Of a stretch of DNA of 32,233 bases, positions 14,413-31,110 are shown in pieces (position 1 is the first letter of the stretch; every line of letters begins with the position of its first letter). The notes under the pieces are model-generated. The model did no database searches. It was not told where the DNA came from and worked only from the letters and a program-made list of their open reading frames with translations. The position numbers and the translations under genes were made by a program. The DNA is from Kutzneria sp. 744 (lineage in GTDB: Bacteria; Actinomycetota; Actinomycetes; Mycobacteriales; Pseudonocardiaceae). The stretch covers positions 3,925,266 to 3,957,498 of the forward strand of contig NZ_KK037166.1 in the NCBI RefSeq assembly GCF_000568255.1, in the 5' to 3' direction.

Positions 14413-15739
14413 GGAAACGCTCCCAGTCGGTGACGGCGGAGTCGAACGCGGCCAGCTCCACACGGGCCGCGTTGCAGTAGTGGTCGACGACGTCCTCGCC
14501 GAACGCGTCGCGGGCGATCGTGCTGGCCGCGAACAGATCCTTGGCCTCACGCAGCGACGACGGCACCGTCGGCTTGTCCGAGGCGTAGGCGTTGCCGGAC
14601 AGCTCGGGCTCCAACGTCAGTCCGCTGTCGATGCCATGGAGACCGGCCGCGATCAGCGCGGCGACCGCGAGATACGGGTTCACGTCGCCGCCCGGCACGC
14701 GGTTTTCGATGCGCAGACCCGCCCCGTGACCGACCAGGCGCAACGCGCAGGTCCGGTTGTCACTACCCCAGGCGATGGCCGTCGGCGCGAAGCTTCCGGG
14801 CTGGAAACGCTTGTAGGAGTTGATGTTCGGCGCGTACAGCAGCGTCAGCTCGCGCAGGCAGGCCAGCTGGCCGGCGATGAACTGTTGCGCGGTCGTGGAC
14901 ATGCCGTGCAGTCCGTCACCGGCGAACGTGAGATCGCCGTCCGTGCCGCGCAGGCTGATGTGGATGTGGCAGGAATTGCCCTCGCGCTCGTTGTACTTGG
15001 CCATGAACGTGAGGCTGCGGCCCTCCTGGGCGGTGATCTCCTTGGCGCCGGTCTTGTAGATCGCATGGTTGTCGCAGGTCGTCAGCGCCTCGTCGTACCG
15101 GAAGACGATCTCGTGCTGACCGAAGTTGCACTCCCCCTTGGCCGACTCGACCATCAGGCCGGCTCCGCTCATCTCGTTGCGGATGCGACGCAGAAGCGGC
15201 TCGATACGGGAGGTTCCGAGCAACGAGTAGTCCACATTGTACTGATTGGCCGGCCGGAGATCCCGGTAGCCGAGGTCGTGCGCCTGCTCGTAGCTGTCGT
15301 CGAAGACGATGAACTCCAGCTCCGTGCCGACAAACGCGGCGAGGCCGCGCTCGGCGAGCCGGTCGAGCTGGCGGCGCAGCACCTGGCGCGGCGAGACCGT
15401 GACCGGGCTGCGGTCTTCCCACTCCACGTCGCACATCACCAGCGCCGTGCCCGGCAGCCATGGCGTGAGCCGTAACGTGCTCAGGTCCGGGCGCATCACG
15501 AAGTCGCCGTAGCCGCGCTCCCACGAGGACATCCGGTAGCCGCCGACGGTGTTCATCTCGACGTCGACCGCGAGCAGGTAGTTGCAGCCCTCGGTGGCGT
15601 GGTCGAGCACCACGTCCAGGAAGTAGCGGGCCGAGCAGCGTTTGCCCTGAAGGCGGCCCTGCATGTCCACGATGGCCACCAGGACGGTGTCGACCTCCCC
15701 GGTCTCCACCAACTCGCGCAGTGCGTCGACGGTGATCAC
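14393..15739 (-). CDS. Glutamine synthetase family protein, probable gamma-glutamyl-amine ligase (GlnA4/PuuA-like)
   Basis: A 448-residue GS-I fold enzyme expected to join glutamate to an amine with ATP rather than to ammonia. Conserved GS features include VGTELEFIVFDD, ESAKGECNFGQHEI, GNSCHIHISL, NSYKRFQPGSFAPTAIAWG and the ENRVPGGDVNPYLAVAALI region. The adenylylation-site NLYDLP segment of true GlnA is replaced by SGNAYASDKPTVPSSL, so it is not a housekeeping GS. The GTG at 15739 has GAGGAAGG 9 nt upstream. It heads the operon ligase > hydrolase > ALDH > SDR > GntR. The mix resembles the Streptomyces ethanolamine (GlnA4) and polyamine (GlnA2/GlnA3) gene sets; the exact amine is not determined. 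Confidence 0.93.
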   Translation of the reverse strand: MITVDALRELVETGEVDTVLVAIVDMQGRLQGKRCSARYFLDVVLDHATEGCNYLLAVDVEMNTVGGYRMSSWERGYGDFVMRPDLSTLRLTPWLPGTALVMCDVEWEDRSPVTVSPRQVLRRQLDRLAERGLAAFVGTELEFIVFDDSYEQAHDLGYRDLRPANQYNVDYSLLGTSRIEPLLRRIRNEMSGAGLMVESAKGECNFGQHEIVFRYDEALTTCDNHAIYKTGAKEITAQEGRSLTFMAKYNEREGNSCHIHISLRGTDGDLTFAGDGLHGMSTTAQQFIAGQLACLRELTLLYAPNINSYKRFQPGSFAPTAIAWGSDNRTCALRLVGHGAGLRIENRVPGGDVNPYLAVAALIAAGLHGIDSGLTLEPELSGNAYASDKPTVPSSLREAKDLFAASTIARDAFGEDVVDHYCNAARVELAAFDSAVTDWERFRGFERL

Positions 15740-15786
15740 GGGGACCGCCCTTCCTCGCCCGGCTCCAATGGACTGATCCTGACCCA

Positions 15787-15817
15787 TTGCATCGGCGCGG
15801 TCAACATGCGCTAGGCT
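15787..15817 (+). promoter_or_regulatory. Promoter of the aromatic leader and DAHP synthase
   Basis: A -35-like TTGCAT (15787-15792), a 19-nt spacer and a -10 TAGGCT (15812-15817) precede the leader GTG at 15824 by 6 nt. Transcription would begin at or next to that GTG, so the leader peptide would be translated from a leaderless RNA. The same TAGGCT hexamer and spacing occurs before the orn GTG in this window. Confidence 0.6.
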
Positions 15818-15823
15818 GATTCC

Positions 15824-15892
15824 GTGCTTCGTAGCTATCCGTGGTTTAGCGAGCCGGCCCTGGGTGGGCCCGGCGGCGACCACGTGCGCTGA
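15824..15892 (+). CDS. Leader peptide with Tyr-Pro-Trp-Phe (aromatic attenuator)
   Basis: A 22-codon ORF, GTG 15824 to TGA 15890-15892, beginning MLRSYPWFSEPALGG. Codons 5-8 are TAT CCG TGG TTT, so Tyr, Trp and Phe, the three end products of the pathway started by the downstream enzyme, sit within four codons. It is followed by a perfect intrinsic terminator (15915-15948) and then the DAHP synthase gene. Leader-peptide attenuation of amino-acid genes (trp, ilv, leu) is known in actinobacteria. No Shine-Dalgarno is visible and the -10 box places the RNA start at the GTG. Competing RNA pairings are described in the findings. Confidence 0.82.
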   Translation: MLRSYPWFSEPALGGPGGDHVR

Positions 15893-15914
15893 CCACGAAG
15901 CACCCAGAGCCGGC

Positions 15915-15948
15915 AAGGCAGAGGCGATTCGCCTCTGCCTTTTGTTTT
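15915..15948 (+). terminator. Intrinsic terminator of the leader (attenuator)
   Basis: AAGGCAGAGGC (15915-15925), loop GATTC, GCCTCTGCCTT (15931-15941): an 11-bp perfect stem followed by the U-rich run TTTTGTTTT to 15948. It lies 22 bp after the leader stop and 58 bp before the DAHP synthase ATG, so when formed it should cut off expression of the enzyme. Confidence 0.9.
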
Positions 15949-16006
15949 GCCCCAGACACAGGGCAGGCCGGCGGGACCTCCGGCGGCCTGCTGGAGAGGA
16001 ACCCCG

Positions 16007-17110
16007 ATGTCCACGCACAACCAGCGCATCGTCAGCTCGCGGCCGATGGTCTCGCCCGCGCTGCTGCGCGACGAGGCCCCGCTCGCCGACGCCGCCGAGG
16101 CCGTCGTCGTGCAGAGCCGGACCGCCGTCACCAACGTGCTCAACGGCGTCGACGACCGGCTACTCGTCGTCGTCGGACCGTGCTCCGTGCACGATCCCGT
16201 GGCCGGCCTCGACTACGCGCGGAGGCTGGCCGCACTGACCGCCGAGCTGTCCGACGAGCTGTGCGTCGTGATGCGCGTGTACTTCGAGAAGCCGCGCACC
16301 ACGCTCGGGTGGAAGGGCCTGATCAACGACCCGCGGATGGACGGCTCCTTCGACGTCAACCACGGGCTGCGCGTCGCCCGGAAGCTGCTGCTCGACATCC
16401 TCGACCTGGGGCTGCCGGTCGGCTGCGAGTTCCTTGACCCGATCACTCCGCAGTACATCGCCGACACCGTGACCTGGGGATCCATCGGCGCCCGCACCGC
16501 GCAGAGCCAGGTGCACCGGCAGCTGTGCAGCGGTCTGTCCATGCCGATCGGGATCAAGAACTCCACCGAGGGCGACGTCCAGGCCGCCGTCGACGCCGTC
16601 AAGGCCGCCGCCTCCAGCCACGTGTTCCCCGGCATCACCGACGACGGCCTGGCGGCGATCTTCTCGACTGCCGGCAACCCCGACTGCCACGTCATCCTGC
16701 GTGGCAGCAGCGCGGGTCCGAACTACGACCGCGCCAGCGTCGAACACACTGTCGGCCGCCTGACGAAGTCCGGCCTGCCTGCGCGGGTGATCGTCGATGC
16801 AAGCCACGGCAACAGCGGCAAGGATCACCTGCGCCAGCCCCTGGTCTCCGGGGACATCGCCGACCGGATCGCCGCCGGCGAGACCGAGGTGGTCGGCATC
16901 ATGCTGGAGAGCTTCCTCGAGGCCGGGCGGCAGGAACTGGTGCTGGGCCACGCCGAGGAACTGGCCTACGGACAGAGCGTCACCGACGCCTGCATGGGCT
17001 GGGACGTGTCGGAGTCCGTGCTCCGCTCCCTCGCCGACGCCGTCAGTCGGCGCCGGGCTTTGCGGTCGGCCGCGACCATGTCGTCAGCTTCCTCGGTTGT
17101 GACGGCCTAG
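16007..17110 (+). CDS. aroF: 3-deoxy-7-phosphoheptulonate (DAHP) synthase, type I
   Basis: A 367-residue enzyme that condenses phosphoenolpyruvate and erythrose 4-phosphate, the first step of the shikimate pathway. Type I (AroF/G/H-like) motifs are VVVGPCSVHDPVAG, YFEKPRTTLGWKGLINDPRM, MPIGIKNSTEGDVQ, HVILRGSSAGPNYD and RVIVDASHGNSGKDH (metal and substrate site). The ATG at 16007 has GGAGAGGA ending 6 nt upstream. The paralogue letter (aroF versus aroG/H) cannot be decided from sequence. Expression is probably set by the upstream YPWF leader and terminator. Many actinomycetes also have a type II enzyme, so this may be the aromatic-responsive isozyme. Confidence 0.95.
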   Translation: MSTHNQRIVSSRPMVSPALLRDEAPLADAAEAVVVQSRTAVTNVLNGVDDRLLVVVGPCSVHDPVAGLDYARRLAALTAELSDELCVVMRVYFEKPRTTLGWKGLINDPRMDGSFDVNHGLRVARKLLLDILDLGLPVGCEFLDPITPQYIADTVTWGSIGARTAQSQVHRQLCSGLSMPIGIKNSTEGDVQAAVDAVKAAASSHVFPGITDDGLAAIFSTAGNPDCHVILRGSSAGPNYDRASVEHTVGRLTKSGLPARVIVDASHGNSGKDHLRQPLVSGDIADRIAAGETEVVGIMLESFLEAGRQELVLGHAEELAYGQSVTDACMGWDVSESVLRSLADAVSRRRALRSAATMSSASSVVTA

Positions 17111-23943: not shown

Positions 23944-25725
23944 GTGGGGTTACGCCAGCTGAGCCCGAAGGTTGTCGTCAGCGTCGTCTTCGTCGCGGCG
24001 CTCTTCCTCAACATCCTCGACACGACCATCGTCAACGTCGCGCTGCCGACGATCGCCGCCCAGTTCCACGTGACCGCCGCCGACGCGGGCGCGGTTGTCG
24101 TCGGCTACCTGCTCAGCCTCGCCCTGGTGATCCCGGCGTCGGGCTGGCTGGGCGACCGGTTCGGCACCAAGCGGGTGTTCCTGATCGCCCTGGCCGTCTT
24201 CACGCTGGCGTCGGCGCTGTGTGGCGTGGCCCAGTCGCTCCCCGAACTGGTCGCGTTCCGGCTGCTCCAGGGCCTCGGCGGCGGCATGCTCGCGCCGATC
24301 GGCCTGGCCATGCTGTACCGGGAGTTCCCGCTGGCCGAGCGCATGCGGGTGAACCGCGTGCTGATTCTGCCGACGGCGGTCGCGCCGGCGATGGGACCCG
24401 TGTTGGGTGGCCTGCTCGTGGACACGCTGTCGTGGCGCTGGGTGTTCTACGTCAACCTGCCGGTCGGCGTGCTGGCCTTCCTGTTCGGGCTGTTCCTGCT
24501 GCGTGAGCACCGCGAGCCGGGCGCCGGGCGGTTCGACGTCGCCGGTTTTGTGCTGTCCGGCGTCGGCTTCGCGCTGCTGATGTACGCACTCACGGAGGGC
24601 GCCACGCTGGGCTGGGGCGCGCCGCAGATTCTGATCACGGGCGTGCTCGGCGCCGCCCTGCTGGCCGCGACCGTGATTGTCGAACTGCGGGTGCCGGAGC
24701 CGATGTTGGACCTACGACTGTTCGGCGACCGACTGTTCCGGAGCATCAATATCGTCCAGCTGATGTCGACGGCCGGCTTTCTCGGCACGCTGTTCGTGTT
24801 CCCGCTGCTCTATCAGTCCGGACTCGGCGTCTCGGCGTGGCAGACCGGGCTGACGACGTTCCCGGAGGCCGTCGGCGTGCTGGTCGGCACGCAGATCGCC
24901 AGTCGGGTGTACTCGACGCTGGGCCCCCGGCTGCACATCGTGCTGGGTGTGGTGAACGCGGCGGTCGGAATGATGCTGATGACGCTGGTCGGGGCGGCCA
25001 CGCCGCAGTGGGCGGTCATGTTGATCATGTTCTACCTGGGACTGGGCATGTCCAACAACTTCAACCCGGCGCAGACCGCCGCGTTCGCGCAGGTGCCGCC
25101 GGCCAAGACGGGGCGGGCGTCCACGCTGTACAACTCCGGCCGGCAGGCTGGGTCGGCGATCGGTGTGGCGGTGCTGGGCAGCGTGCTTGCCGCGTTCAGC
25201 AGCGGCGGGGCTTCGGGTGGGACAGGCCACCTGCTCGGCTATCACGTGGCGTTCGCGGTGGCGGCCGGACTGATGATCGCGTCCGGGGTGGCGGCGCTTC
25301 TGATCAAGGACGGCGACGCGGCGGCGACCGTGACCCGATCGGAACGGGTTGCGGCCGTCGAAGCGGCGGACGTTGCTGCGGCGGCGAGCGGCGCGACGGC
25401 GAACTTCGACGACATCGAGAAGTTCGGCGGTGCGGAGAAGTTCGGCGAAGTGGAGAAGTTCGACAACGCGGACAAGTCCGGCGAAGCGGAGAAGGTCCAC
25501 GAGATGCAGAAGTTCGTCGAACTCGAGAAGTTCGACGACGGGCAGATGTTCGACGACGGAGAGAAGTTCGGCCGCACGGGCAAGTTGGACGACATCCAGA
25601 AGTTCGACGTCATGGACAAGTTCGACGACATGGAGAAGTCGGGCGAAGTTGCGGGGGCCGGTGAAGTGGTGGGAGTGGGCGACGTCGTGAGGCCTGCGGC
25701 CTCGCGGAAGTCGCCGACGCGGTGA
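23944..25725 (+). CDS. DHA2-type MFS drug transporter with hexapeptide-repeat cytoplasmic tail
   Basis: A 593-residue proton-coupled exporter of the EmrB/QacA type. Residues 1-460 carry the hydrophobic helices with the marker motifs LDTTIVNVALPTIAAQFHVT, GWLGDRFGTKRVFLIAL (motif A), RLLQGLGGGMLAPIG and ILPTAVAPAMGPVLGG (motif C region). After an Ala-rich stretch, residues 489-584 are sixteen hexapeptides (DDIEKF, GGAEKF, GEVEKF, VELEKF, DDIQKF ...) of charged, EKF-centred type, then a short ASRKSPTR end. The tail is unusual for the family. The repeat continues in other frames after the stop, so the present C-terminus may be a truncation. GTG 23944 has AGGGAG 7 nt upstream. Confidence 0.93.
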   Translation: MGLRQLSPKVVVSVVFVAALFLNILDTTIVNVALPTIAAQFHVTAADAGAVVVGYLLSLALVIPASGWLGDRFGTKRVFLIALAVFTLASALCGVAQSLPELVAFRLLQGLGGGMLAPIGLAMLYREFPLAERMRVNRVLILPTAVAPAMGPVLGGLLVDTLSWRWVFYVNLPVGVLAFLFGLFLLREHREPGAGRFDVAGFVLSGVGFALLMYALTEGATLGWGAPQILITGVLGAALLAATVIVELRVPEPMLDLRLFGDRLFRSINIVQLMSTAGFLGTLFVFPLLYQSGLGVSAWQTGLTTFPEAVGVLVGTQIASRVYSTLGPRLHIVLGVVNAAVGMMLMTLVGAATPQWAVMLIMFYLGLGMSNNFNPAQTAAFAQVPPAKTGRASTLYNSGRQAGSAIGVAVLGSVLAAFSSGGASGGTGHLLGYHVAFAVAAGLMIASGVAALLIKDGDAAATVTRSERVAAVEAADVAAAASGATANFDDIEKFGGAEKFGEVEKFDNADKSGEAEKVHEMQKFVELEKFDDGQMFDDGEKFGRTGKLDDIQKFDVMDKFDDMEKSGEVAGAGEVVGVGDVVRPAASRKSPTR

Positions 25726-28103: not shown

Positions 28104-28271
28104 CCCACCCACCTCCCGGGTCGACGTCCACCATGGACGCTAAATCGGCAAGGGGACGAACGTGTTTCGGGATTATGTCGACTAGACACCCGAAAAGTCC
28201 CACGATTTCACGCGCTCGGCCTATGGGACGCGGGGAAGCGGTGCTGGTGGTGGGCGCTGGGGTGACGCGGG

Positions 28272-29535
28272 AGGGGAACACCGGCGGGTGAACCGGGAAC
28301 ACCGACAGGCAGGTCGGCCGGCGAACCGGAGCATCGGTGGGGCGAACCAAGAACCCCAGCAGGCGGACCCGAGGCGTCGACGGGCAGACCTGAAGCTCAC
28401 GAGCGGGTCGACAGGGAAGCCAGGCCTACGGATCGGAATCCCAGCGGGTCGACGGCGAACACAGGCGGTCGGACCTGAACACCAGTGGGCAGACCGGCAA
28501 CGCCAGCTGACGGACCGAGAGCATGGGCAGGCGTGCAGCAAACCGGCAGACGGGCCGGAGCCTCGGTGGGCGGACCGTGAACTCCTCAACGGACACCGGG
28601 ACACAAGCAGGTGAACCGAGAACTCCAGCGTGTCGGCCGGAACACCAGCGGCGGACGCGGAGCGTCGGCAGGCGAACCACGGACCCGACGGATCTACGGA
28701 GAACACCAGCGAGCGGATCCGGAACACCCACCGGCGAATGCCAGCAGGTTGACCGCGAACGCCAGTAGCCAGACCCAGGAGACCCGCAGGCAAACCAAAA
28801 GCCCGGCTGAGCGACGGCGGAAACCAGCGGGTGGGCCCGGGACACCTCGGGCAAACCAACAACGCCAGCAGGTCGACGGCAAACACCAGCAGCCAGACCC
28901 AGGACACCGGCGAGCGAATCAAGAACCCAACGGGTCAACGGCGAACGCCAGCGGGCGGGCCCGGGACACCGGCAGGCGAACCAAGAGCCCTACAGATCGA
29001 CGGCAAACACCAGCAGCCAGACCCGCGAGACCCGCGGCCAAACCAAGAACCCCAGCAGGTCGACGGCGAACGCCAGCAGTCAGATCCGGGAGACCGGCGG
29101 GCGAGTCATGAGCCCGGCGGGTCGACGGCGGACGCCAGCGGGCCGGTCCGCAATACCAGTGCGTGAACCCAGGAACCCTGTGGGGGCGACGGCGAACACG
29201 GGCGGCCTGACCAGGACGCCAGCAAGCAGACCGGCAGCTCCGGCGGGTGGGCCGGCAAGGCCGGCGAGCGGGCCGGGAGCTTCGGTGGACGGGGCGGAAC
29301 CGCAGGCGGGTGGACGGGGTGGAACCACGGGCGGGTGGACGGGAACAGCGCTGGCGGGCCGAGATCCCGGTGAGCAGACGGGAAAGACCGGCGGGTGAAG
29401 CGAGGATCCCGAACAGGTCGACGGGGAACAGAACGGAACGCCGGCGGACGGGGGCCTTGGACGTCAGCGGAAGGAGTCGGAGCGGCTGTGGGCGGACGGG
29501 GAACGTCGGCGGGCGGATACGTGAGGTGGGTAAGG
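28272..29535. repeat. Degenerate ~21-bp tandem array (about 60 units) with 62-bp higher-order repeats
   Basis: The + strand repeats a unit close to GACCGGGAACACCAGCAGG every 20-22 bp through the region (for example GAAC-type cores at 28457, 28477, 28498, 28519, 28540, 28579, 28600, 28620, 28640, 28660). From about 28748 to 29185 three units form a larger block: the word CGACGGCRAAC recurs, with small changes, at 28750, 28812, 28874, 28936, 28998, 29061, 29123 and 29187, steps of 62-64 bp. Toward 29250-29535 the units become GGCGGGTGGACGG-rich. Every frame on both strands is low-complexity with no ribosome site, so I see no gene in this stretch. There are no unique spacers, so it is not CRISPR. 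It lies 3' of the HerA-like gene. Confidence 0.88.
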
Positions 29536-29580
29536 AAGCGAAGGGAGCCACTCACATACCGAAGAGCCACCACGCAGGAG

Positions 29581-31110
29581 TCAGCGGCGGCGGGAGGTTC
29601 CGAAGATTCCTCGGGTGATCTCACGGCCCAGGGCGGAGCCGGCGGAGCGGAGGAAGGACTTCACGGCCGGGTTGCCGAGGACCTGGCCGATGAGGCCGGG
29701 GTCGGCGGAGTCCTTGCGGGGCGCGGGGTCTGAGGGGTCTGAAGGACCGGCGGGGTCGGAGGAGGACGGCGGGGCGACCTTGGCCAAGAGCATCTCGTAC
29801 GCGGACTCGCGGTCGACGGCCTGGCCGTACTTGGCGAACAGGGGTGACGAGGCGGCGGCCTGCTTGACGGCGTCGGCGCCGATGGAGGCCATGAGGGAAC
29901 GGGGCGGCCGAAGGCGGGTCCAAGCGACGGGGGTGGGGGCGCCCTGCTCCGAAAGGACGGTGACGACGGCCTCGCCGATGCCGAGGGTGGTGAGGGCCTT
30001 GCCGAGGTCGTAGTGGGGAGTGGTGGGGTAGGTCTTGACGGTCTGGGCCAAGGCCTTCTGGTCGTCGGGGGTGAAGGCGCGAAGGGCATGCTGGACCCGG
30101 GCCCCGAGCTGGGAGAGCACGGCGTTGGGCACATCGGTGGGGAGCTGGGTGCAGAAGAAGACCCCGACGCCCTTGGAACGGATGAGCTTGACGGTCTGGA
30201 CGATCTGCTCCAGAAAGGCTTTGGAGGCGTCGGCGAACAGCAGGTGCGCCTCGTCGAAGAAGAAGATCAGCTTGGGCTTGTCCAGGTCGCCTTCCTCGGG
30301 AAGCTGGTGGAACAGCTGAGCCAACAGCCACATCAGGAACGTGGAGAAGAGGGCGGGGTTGCCCTGGAGCTCGGCGAGCTCCAGGAGGGTGACGACGCCG
30401 CGGCCGCCGTCGACGCGCATGAGGTCGGTGGGGTCGAGCTCGGGCTCGCCGAAGAAGGTGTCGCCGCCGTTGGCCTCGAGGTTGAGCAGGGCCCGAAGGA
30501 TCACGCCGGCGGTGGCGGGAGAGACGCCGCCGAGGCCCTTGAGGTCCTCCTTGCCCTCGTCGCCGGTCAGGTGCTGGATGACGGAGCGAAGGTCCTTGGT
30601 GTCCAACAGGGGCAGGCCACGGGAGTCGGCCCAGTGGAAGATGAGCCCGAGGGTGGACTCCTGGGTGTCGTTGAGGCCCAACACCTTGGACAGCAGGATG
30701 GGCCCGAAGCTGGTGATGGTCGCCCGCACGGGGACGGAGCCGCCGCCGTCGCCGAGGGACAGGAACTGCGCGGGGAAGCCGGCGGCGGCCCAGTCGTCGC
30801 CGGTCTCGGCGGCCCGCTTGGCGACCTTGTCGCCGCCGGCGCCGGGCTGGGACAGGCCGGAGAGGTCGCCCTTGACGTCGGCCATGACGACGGGCACGCC
30901 GGCGGCGGAGAGCTGCTCGGCCATGAGTTGGAGGGTCTTGGTCTTGCCGGTGCCGGTGGCGCCGGCGATCAGGCCGTGGCGGTTCAGCGTGGCCAGCGGC
31001 AGACGGACCCGGGCCGAGGCGTTGACGACGCCGTCGACGACGGCGGACCCGAGCTCCAGCGCACCGCCCTCGGTGGCGTAACCGGCGGCGATCTCCTCGA
31101 ACGCGTCCAC
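29581..31110 (-). CDS. Helicase HerA-like domain (DUF853) protein
   Basis: A 509-residue P-loop ATPase of the HerA/FtsK class. Walker A is AGATGTGKTKTLQLMAEQL (about residues 48-65), Walker B is KPKLIFFFDEAHLLFAD (about 279-293), and GVGVFFCTQLPTDVPNAVLS is the sensor/arginine-finger zone. The C-terminus is Pro/Ser/Asp-rich (PSDPSDPAPRKDSADP), then a basic end. GTG 31110 has GGGAGG 5 nt upstream. Bacterial DUF853 proteins are cytoplasmic and poorly characterised; unlike archaeal HerA there is no NurA nuclease next to it, so a DNA-end role is not shown. Confidence 0.92.
   Translation of the reverse strand: MDAFEEIAAGYATEGGALELGSAVVDGVVNASARVRLPLATLNRHGLIAGATGTGKTKTLQLMAEQLSAAGVPVVMADVKGDLSGLSQPGAGGDKVAKRAAETGDDWAAAGFPAQFLSLGDGGGSVPVRATITSFGPILLSKVLGLNDTQESTLGLIFHWADSRGLPLLDTKDLRSVIQHLTGDEGKEDLKGLGGVSPATAGVILRALLNLEANGGDTFFGEPELDPTDLMRVDGGRGVVTLLELAELQGNPALFSTFLMWLLAQLFHQLPEEGDLDKPKLIFFFDEAHLLFADASKAFLEQIVQTVKLIRSKGVGVFFCTQLPTDVPNAVLSQLGARVQHALRAFTPDDQKALAQTVKTYPTTPHYDLGKALTTLGIGEAVVTVLSEQGAPTPVAWTRLRPPRSLMASIGADAVKQAAASSPLFAKYGQAVDRESAYEMLLAKVAPPSSSDPAGPSDPSDPAPRKDSADPGLIGQVLGNPAVKSFLRSAGSALGREITRGIFGTSRRR

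Follow-up and report, generated by a model that had tools for sequence, protein, structure and literature searches.

A probably leaderless leader peptide with Tyr, Trp and Phe codons upstream of the type I DAHP synthase gene in Kutzneria sp. 744 and its relatives

Comparative and folding analyses of a 32,233-nt stretch of the Kutzneria sp. 744 genome (the window, whose numbering is used throughout) lead us to propose that the type I DAHP synthase gene it contains is probably controlled by a leaderless, ribosome-mediated attenuator of the aroR kind, which would be read at Tyr, Trp and Phe codons. At the level of sequence, a conserved codon set, the spacing of a -10 hexamer and a set of predicted alternative helices are demonstrated. 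Three-way sensing by the leader is well supported by comparative evidence, from which we infer that expression would respond to all three amino acids.

Layout of the locus

The features of the locus are as follows.

15812..15817, forward strand: -10 hexamer TAGGCT, 6 nt upstream of the leader GTG (read directly)
15824..15892, forward strand: leader ORF of 22 codons plus TGA, MLRSYPWFSEPALGGPGGDHVR (read directly; counterparts at 78 of 90 family DAHP synthase loci)
15824..15832, forward strand: leader-start helix, 5' arm, GTGCTTCGT (from folding; probability 0.97 in naked RNA)
15836..15847, forward strand: sensor codons TAT CCG TGG TTT (Tyr, Pro, Trp, Phe), codons 5-8 (read directly; conserved in family leaders)
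15853..15866, forward strand: segment 1-2, GCCGGCCCTGGGTG, directly after the sensor codons; 13 of 14 positions pair with segment 3
15895..15903, forward strand: leader-start helix, 3' arm, ACGAAGCAC, bases past the leader stop (from folding)
15901..15914, forward strand: segment 3, CACCCAGAGCCGGC, able to pair with either segment 1-2 or segment 4
15915..15948, forward strand: intrinsic terminator, 12-bp stem 15915-15941, loop of 3, U-rich tail (terminator scan)
15963..15975, forward strand: segment 4, GCAGGCCGGCGGG, pairs with segment 3 (six pairs) or segment 5
15979..15991, forward strand: segment 5, TCCGGCGGCCTGC, directly 5' of the Shine-Dalgarno sequence
15993..16001, forward strand: Shine-Dalgarno-like GGAGAGGAA of the DAHP synthase gene (read directly)
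16007..17110, forward strand: type I (aroFGH) DAHP synthase gene, 367 aa (TIGR00034 aroFGH)

Direct reading of the leader ORF (15824-15892; GTG CTT CGT AGC TAT CCG TGG TTT AGC GAG CCG GCC CTG GGT GGG CCC GGC GGC GAC CAC GTG CGC TGA) bore out a first-pass annotation of this DNA, which had described a 22-codon ORF with TAT CCG TGG TTT as codons 5-8. The TAGGCT that it took to be a -10, 6 nt before the GTG, is indeed found at 15812-15817, and the terminator that it placed at 15915-15948 was recovered by a terminator scan with 12 pairs, a loop of 3 and a U-rich tail. This was the one terminator hit in 15300-16300 (mean 0.2 and s.d. 0.5 in shuffles), the bases after its stem being TTGTTTTG, and the same scan gave no sigma-70-type promoter pair in that interval. 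The downstream gene, previously said to encode the first-step shikimate enzyme, proved to encode a type I DAHP synthase (483.7 bits against TIGR00034 aroFGH, cut-off 173.2). As expected of an attenuator, a short ORF with codons for products of the pathway thus precedes a biosynthetic gene, and, as with aroR, the leader stands directly 5' of the DAHP synthase gene.

None of 200 dinucleotide shuffles folds as well as the RNA from 15824 to 15955 (z = -5.08). No family of Rfam release 15 matched the leader RNA at the gathering score, the whole window giving just a tRNA; the best sub-threshold match in 15740-16060 was ar35 (E = 0.18). The R1 search across the whole Kutzneria genome returned one strong hit, all others having E values of 0.3 or worse. 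The genome encodes one type I and two type II DAHP synthases, and no aromatic leader was seen by eye in the upstream bases read for the two type II genes, nor in the bases read for the trpE-like and pheA genes. (Elsewhere in the window, a long ORF at 23944-25725 ends, after a transporter-like part, in many EKFDD/EKFGE-type repeats at 25200-25725, and 28221-29620 is a repetitive, low-complexity stretch with long ORFs in several frames on both strands.)

Aromatic codons are conserved in leaders of relatives

Of 200 family genomes, 122 contain a match to the type I DAHP synthase protein. From the 146 listed places, 90 loci were read, namely the best 30 together with 60 picked by hand to take in distant paralogues, and a leader was accepted if it comprised 15-40 residues, at least two of them Tyr, Trp or Phe, with TANNNT six or seven bases before its start; no particular residue was required. 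Such a leader was found at 78 of these 90 loci, in 22 genera. Trp and Phe occur in all 78 leaders and Tyr in 75 (the Tyr-less ones are L137, L142 and L154), and the residues between the conserved aromatics vary, giving YPWF, YRWF, YFWF, YWWF and AYWF. Of the 12 loci at which no leader ORF was accepted, nine are distant matches (51-58% identity). The other three belong to genus g25 (L131, L148 and L156; 63-68% identity); there the start codon and the aromatic codons have been lost and segments 3-5 before the DAHP synthase gene have been kept. The leader ORF is therefore more than a chance occurrence.

The same codons recur more widely. All ten loci from actinobacteria of named genera (L031-L040) have Tyr, Trp and Phe, and a leader was present at 16 of 20 further actinobacterial loci, with Tyr and Trp in 16 of 16 and Phe in 15 of 16; genera among those 16 include Mycobacterium, Dietzia, Tsukamurella, Gordonia, Micromonospora, Isoptericola, Kribbella and, for Streptomyces, sp. 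150FB. Two Nocardiopsis loci and two MAG loci gave no leader by the parse used for these 20. Among 20 further stretches of the order (two of which, L320 and L321, derive from one gene), 16 have a leader, with Trp in 14 and no Trp in two.

Codon usage within the leaders is unusual. In their first 14 codons, 74 of 95 Tyr codons are TAT and 87 of 151 Phe codons are TTT, as against 14 of 103 and 15 of 162, respectively, in other ORFs of the window, a comparison that sets leaders from many genomes against 13 hand-chosen ORFs from one genome. The idea that a single leader carries Tyr, Trp and Phe codons is thus supported both by conservation (75, 78 and 78 of 78) and by the Trp-less chorismate mutase leaders described below.

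Promoter spacing points to a leaderless start

Because TANNNT was a condition of acceptance in the first parse, the parse was repeated with no promoter requirement, on the condition that a stretch of seven residues close to the start contain three aromatic ones. By this parse 76 of the 90 loci passed, and TANNNT lay 6-7 bases upstream in 74 of the 76, compared to 2 of 653 other ATG or GTG triplets in the same stretches. (The two exceptions, L002 and L158, are loci for which the parse picked an inner start codon.) The window has the spacing characteristic of a leaderless transcript, with its -10 TANNNT 6-7 nt before the start codon. The promoter-free test favours a leaderless start, and on the strength of this spacing the leader mRNA is probably leaderless, as the first-pass annotation had supposed.

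Leader codon content appears to follow the pathway branch

Chorismate mutase, which opens the Phe/Tyr branch, is the step past which Trp is no longer a product. The chorismate mutase gene of Kutzneria (L232, L237; G000:C1:6686334-6686603, minus strand) has a leader of its own, MCARHYEFFYGIRTPAPVVA, with Tyr and Phe and no Trp; its sequence is unlike that of the DAHP synthase leader, and a GC-rich hairpin lies 3' of it. All 120 family genomes searched contain a match to this protein, and the best 30 loci were read for ORFs with at least three aromatic residues. An aromatic leader was found at 28 of these 30 (L239 has seemingly lost the frame and L255 has none), with Tyr and Phe in 28 of 28. Within the first 14 residues Trp occurs in 0 of 28, and one leader has a single Trp near an end, outside the aromatic part. 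Note that where several starts were possible the one with -10-like spacing was taken, and that longer choices at L244, L252, L256, L259 and L264 would add a Trp ahead of the start taken. The -10 is weaker in this set, with TANNNT in one leader, (T/G/C)ANNNT at 5-8 bases in 25 and neither in two. The difference in Trp content (78 of 78 DAHP synthase leaders vs 1 of 28 chorismate mutase leaders) has a Fisher P of 2e-24, uncorrected for kinship.

A covariance model of the leader matched 68 of 394 genomes of the class, and a second model, built mainly from the new leaders, matched 54; the downstream gene was assigned by tblastn at 86 loci. Of these, 70 yielded both a leader and a gene, six of those places being counted twice. 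Four (L211, L220, L268 and L269; two places, at contig ends) had a leader with no gene match, five (L178, L194, L288, L289 and L295) had a gene and no leader by that parse, although L178 and L194 show one in a separate reading, and seven with neither (L224, L227-L229, L292, L294 and L298) are probably false matches. Tyr, Trp and Phe are present in 6 of 6 leaders of type I-beta DAHP synthases (for example, MQRKFWRFYGYRP...). At 34 distinct places before chorismate mutase, alone or behind a DAHP synthase-like domain, Trp occurs in none, Phe in 34 and Tyr in 22 (examples are MRTYLAFIEPARVAGRVEA and MDRYFAFTEPAPEGRS, and the Phe-only MDRCSVFTEPAPEGRS). Leaders of type I-alpha DAHP synthases have Trp in 15 of 24; the nine Trp-less ones belong to two genera of a single family, g89 and g111, read RYPYF and similar, and are a real exception to the branch logic. 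Since model searches may favour look-alikes, the gene-first reading is the cleaner test. The codon set fits the end products of the enzyme, given where chorismate mutase lies in the pathway, and leader codon content thus appears to follow the pathway branch. (At L184, L185, L187, L189-L193 and similar loci, chorismate mutase stands behind a DAHP synthase-like stretch under a Tyr/Phe leader.)

Ribosome position and the downstream helices

Ribosome states were modelled by folding the window RNA with a masked footprint in five states. The core of the 1-2:3 helix had a probability of 1.0 with the ribosome stalled at Tyr5, 1.0 at Trp7, 0.97 at Phe8 and 0.56 at the stop codon, and of 0.0 in naked RNA; stalls on all three codons form 1-2:3, and a halt at any of them is therefore predicted to throw the same switch. 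Across 84 distinct leaders, a leader:r3 helix of at least five pairs formed in all 84 with a stall at the first aromatic codon or at Trp, in 80 at the last aromatic codon, in 57 in naked RNA and in 38 at the stop codon. A stalled ribosome favours this alternative helix: relative to the stop codon, a Trp stall enlarges it by at least two pairs in 69 of 84 leaders and makes it smaller in none, and relative to naked RNA it gains at least two pairs in 37 of 84. That 57 of 84 naked RNAs already form the helix speaks against a switch. Mean numbers of pairs were 13.5 at the first aromatic codon, 13.3 at Trp and 9.5 at the last aromatic codon. When the post-stop bases were shuffled, 5 pairs were reached in 674 of 840 folds and 10 pairs in 338 of 840, compared to 84 of 84 and 83 of 84 for the real leaders.

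Segment 3 was located by parsing the bases past the leader stop for GAGCC[GA]G or either of two near forms, with a hit at 89 of 90 loci; GAGCC is invariant in 49 aligned leaders, an invariance that is partly built in by this parse, and the leader body and segment 3 are strongly conserved in nucleotides. (Near-identical sequences are represented once in the alignments, A1 with 49 and A3 with 33; A3 omits loci in which a long insert separates segment 3 from segment 4.) The helix between the leader and the post-stop bases (segment 1-2:3) beats shuffles (p<0.05) at 52 of 77 distinct loci. The first-pass annotation had argued that a leaderless start removes the usual 5' segment; this fails, because the leader body itself provides an upstream pairing segment.

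The 3:4 helix beats shuffles at 68 of 89 loci; that of the window has six pairs and was equalled in 32 of 100 shuffles. Six of its eight pairs are invariant in 33 aligned relatives, so that covariation cannot be counted. The 4:5 helix beats shuffles at 58 of 89 loci, and that of the window was equalled in 0 of 100. It covaries in the 33 relatives, with 36 double-change cells and a covariation score neither of which was reached by any of 500 shuffles, and slid versions of the helix gave at most 11 such cells. Of five covariation measures, two lay within the shuffle range: the number of pairs showing a double change (261 of 500) and the number of pair types (497 of 500). One pair among the twelve is open in 18 of 33 relatives.

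Other pairings were considered and set aside. A leader-start helix of 9 pairs (15824-15832/15895-15903), absent from the earlier description, has counterparts of the leader-start:post-stop kind with p<0.05 at 42 of 78 loci; as a conserved element it was rejected, 87.8% of cells being paired with covariation no greater than in shuffles, and its CAGCGC/GCGCTG form in relatives likewise did not covary. Sequestration of the Shine-Dalgarno sequence was not borne out, as a two-state accessibility gap above 0.2 appeared in 17 of 88 loci, 5 in one direction and 12 in the other. A 5:6 hairpin was weakly enriched (p<0.05 at 15 of 89 loci).

The U-run terminator accompanies a minority of family leaders and folds in every state

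The stem of the window terminator had a probability of 0.94-0.97 in all five folded states. No classical antiterminator overlapping it was found among the masked states, in each of which the stem forms about equally; the stall-favoured helix adjoins the terminator flush, with no overlap, and the terminator shares no pairs with segment 3. An alignment of relatives, proposed earlier as a check, confirmed the aromatic codons and not the terminator, which in its U-run form is present in just 9 of 89 leaders of the first set. The terminator thus does not hold up as the conserved core of the attenuator, given this count and its probability in every ribosome position.

In the genus of the window, a similar U-run hairpin follows 6 of 7 leaders (L001-L006, not L007), and it is present in other lineages too. 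Outside the first set, a U-run terminator follows 6 of 6 leaders of type I-beta DAHP synthases; the class-wide counts are 9 of 26 for type I-alpha and 20 of 34 for chorismate mutase. The terminator starts 0 to 3 bases past segment 3 in eight of nine loci; at L045 the last two bases of the 8-base segment-3 motif lie within the terminator. Family relatives that have no U-run may act through 3:4, 4:5 and translation. (By eye, the terminator stem AGGCAGAGAC...GTCTCTGCCT is alike across lineages and gene classes beyond what pairing needs, in L001-L006, L184-L201, L291, L299, L300 and others.)

A model for attenuation and its alternatives

In the mechanism that we favour, the mRNA would begin at the leader start codon, and a ribosome halted by shortage of any of the three charged tRNAs would leave segment 1-2 free to pair with segment 3. 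This pairing would allow transcription to pass the terminator, and our guess is that the flush 1-2:3 helix might relieve termination by sterically hindering closure of the stem. In relatives that have no U-run, 1-2:3 pairing would instead enable segments 4 and 5 to pair next to the Shine-Dalgarno sequence. With a ribosome that has reached the stop codon, 1-2:3 would be disfavoured, so that segment 3 would be free and expression low. (The direction, in which stalling gives higher expression, is borrowed from C. glutamicum aroR.) With respect to the first-pass interpretation, its codon set and, judged by spacing, its leaderlessness are retained here, and its terminator core and lost 5' segment are given up.

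It could also be that one amino acid (Phe, or Trp) is effective and that the other aromatic codons are passengers of RNA structure or of descent. The accessible text of a review reports that the FYF leader of C. glutamicum responds to Phe and not to Tyr (PMC11802643); Tyr is absent from 3 of 78 family leaders and from 12 of 34 class-wide chorismate mutase leaders, all of which keep Phe; Trp is absent from 9 of 24 class-wide type I-alpha leaders; and the helix is fuller with a stall at the first aromatic codon or Trp than at the last aromatic codon (13.5 and 13.3 vs 9.5 pairs). We nevertheless regard a single effective signal as unlikely, as Tyr, Trp and Phe are kept while the intervening residues change, and Trp is absent where the gene serves the Phe/Tyr branch alone.

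A reading in which the RNA is a protein- or ligand-binding element, with the ORF incidental to regulation, would accommodate the strongly conserved nucleotides of the leader body and of segment 3, the retention of segments 3-5 in genus g25 after loss of the leader, and the no or inconsistent effects of leader codon changes at S. coelicolor ilvB/leuA given in the accessible part of one study (PMC1262725). It is improbable in the face of codon content that tracks the pathway branch among leaders of differing sequence, of a -10 at leaderless spacing and of the rare TAT and TTT codons. As for a chance ORF, with a terminator that closes an unrelated short transcript and a DAHP synthase gene that has its own promoter, it is favoured by a terminator that is thermodynamically allowed in every state and by the lack of any sigma-70-type promoter pair in the scan. 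Against it stand the occurrence of such an ORF at 78 of the 90 family loci, a -10 spacing far over background and, in relatives, the covariation of segments 4 and 5 ahead of the gene; this explanation is scarcely credible and is nearly refuted.

Returning to the leaderless, ribosome-mediated attenuator, we tentatively extend it to a broader statement, which we judge somewhat more apt to fail than to hold. Actinobacterial leaderless leaders may report the position of a gene relative to the branch, those of DAHP synthases I-alpha and I-beta with Tyr, Trp and Phe and those of chorismate mutase with Tyr and/or Phe and no Trp; a downstream relay of mutually exclusive helices (1-2:3, 3:4 and 4:5) would end beside the Shine-Dalgarno sequence, so that, depending on the lineage, one sensor could control either termination or translation. 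A first pathway step that serves three products must sum three signals, and a single peptide could achieve this without the help of a regulatory protein. The Trp-less second leader past the branch point, in genomes of the same family, offers a clean test of the codon logic, and the leaders give handles on the supply of aromatic precursors in actinobacteria.

Comparison with known systems

The E. coli trp and pheA attenuators work by alternating helices set by ribosome position; each responds to one amino acid, and antiterminator and terminator overlap. The Kutzneria leader resembles them in its predicted alternating helices set by ribosome position and differs in having three aromatic codons and no antiterminator that overlaps the terminator.

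The original study of the aroR-aroF attenuator is said to be Neshat 2014. In the accessible portions of two articles, C. glutamicum aroF is preceded by the aroR leader with Phe-Tyr-Phe codons (PMC11802643, PMC4046766), and one of these, a review, has transcription rising under Phe limitation with Tyr having no effect (PMC11802643); a third, likewise in part, states that both Phe and Tyr control aroR-aroF (PMC7356990). As far as these texts go, the two systems share an aromatic-codon leader peptide before a DAHP synthase gene and, putatively, ribosome-mediated attenuation; they differ in that aroR has Phe-Tyr-Phe and a reported Phe response, whereas the Kutzneria locus has Tyr, Trp and Phe codons. 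Moreover, unlike aroR, most family relatives have no U-run terminator and instead have 3:4/4:5 beside the Shine-Dalgarno sequence. A linking form, MRMWRFYFSKAPEAETS, is found at L303 in a 2.4-Mb genome of the same order; it combines FYF with Trp and has, by eye, a similar hairpin and U-run.

Going by its title, Morbach 2000 reportedly describes a leaderless leader peptide for C. glutamicum ilvBNC. Leaderless leaders are also described in S. lividans, where, as is probable here, the start codon is the mRNA 5' end and the codons match the regulated pathway; among the eight leader peptides in the accessible part of that work, none belongs to DAHP synthase or chorismate mutase (PMC8079986). The uORFC-13-1 motif before aroF in Acholeplasma is, in the part of the source available, likewise a short ORF with Phe codons and a terminator; it belongs to another phylum, has its own ribosome binding site and reads Phe, the likeness being one of description (PMC8632094). 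A 2005 actinobacterial comparative study, in its accessible part, reports that nothing was detected upstream of Phe or Tyr operons (PMC1262725). The three-codon form, its breadth, the Trp-less chorismate mutase leader and the covarying 4:5 helix were not found in the literature searched, a search whose scope took in few subscription journals. The kind of system is already known, and the DAHP synthase leader is best regarded as a widespread variant of the leaderless attenuators of the aroR type.
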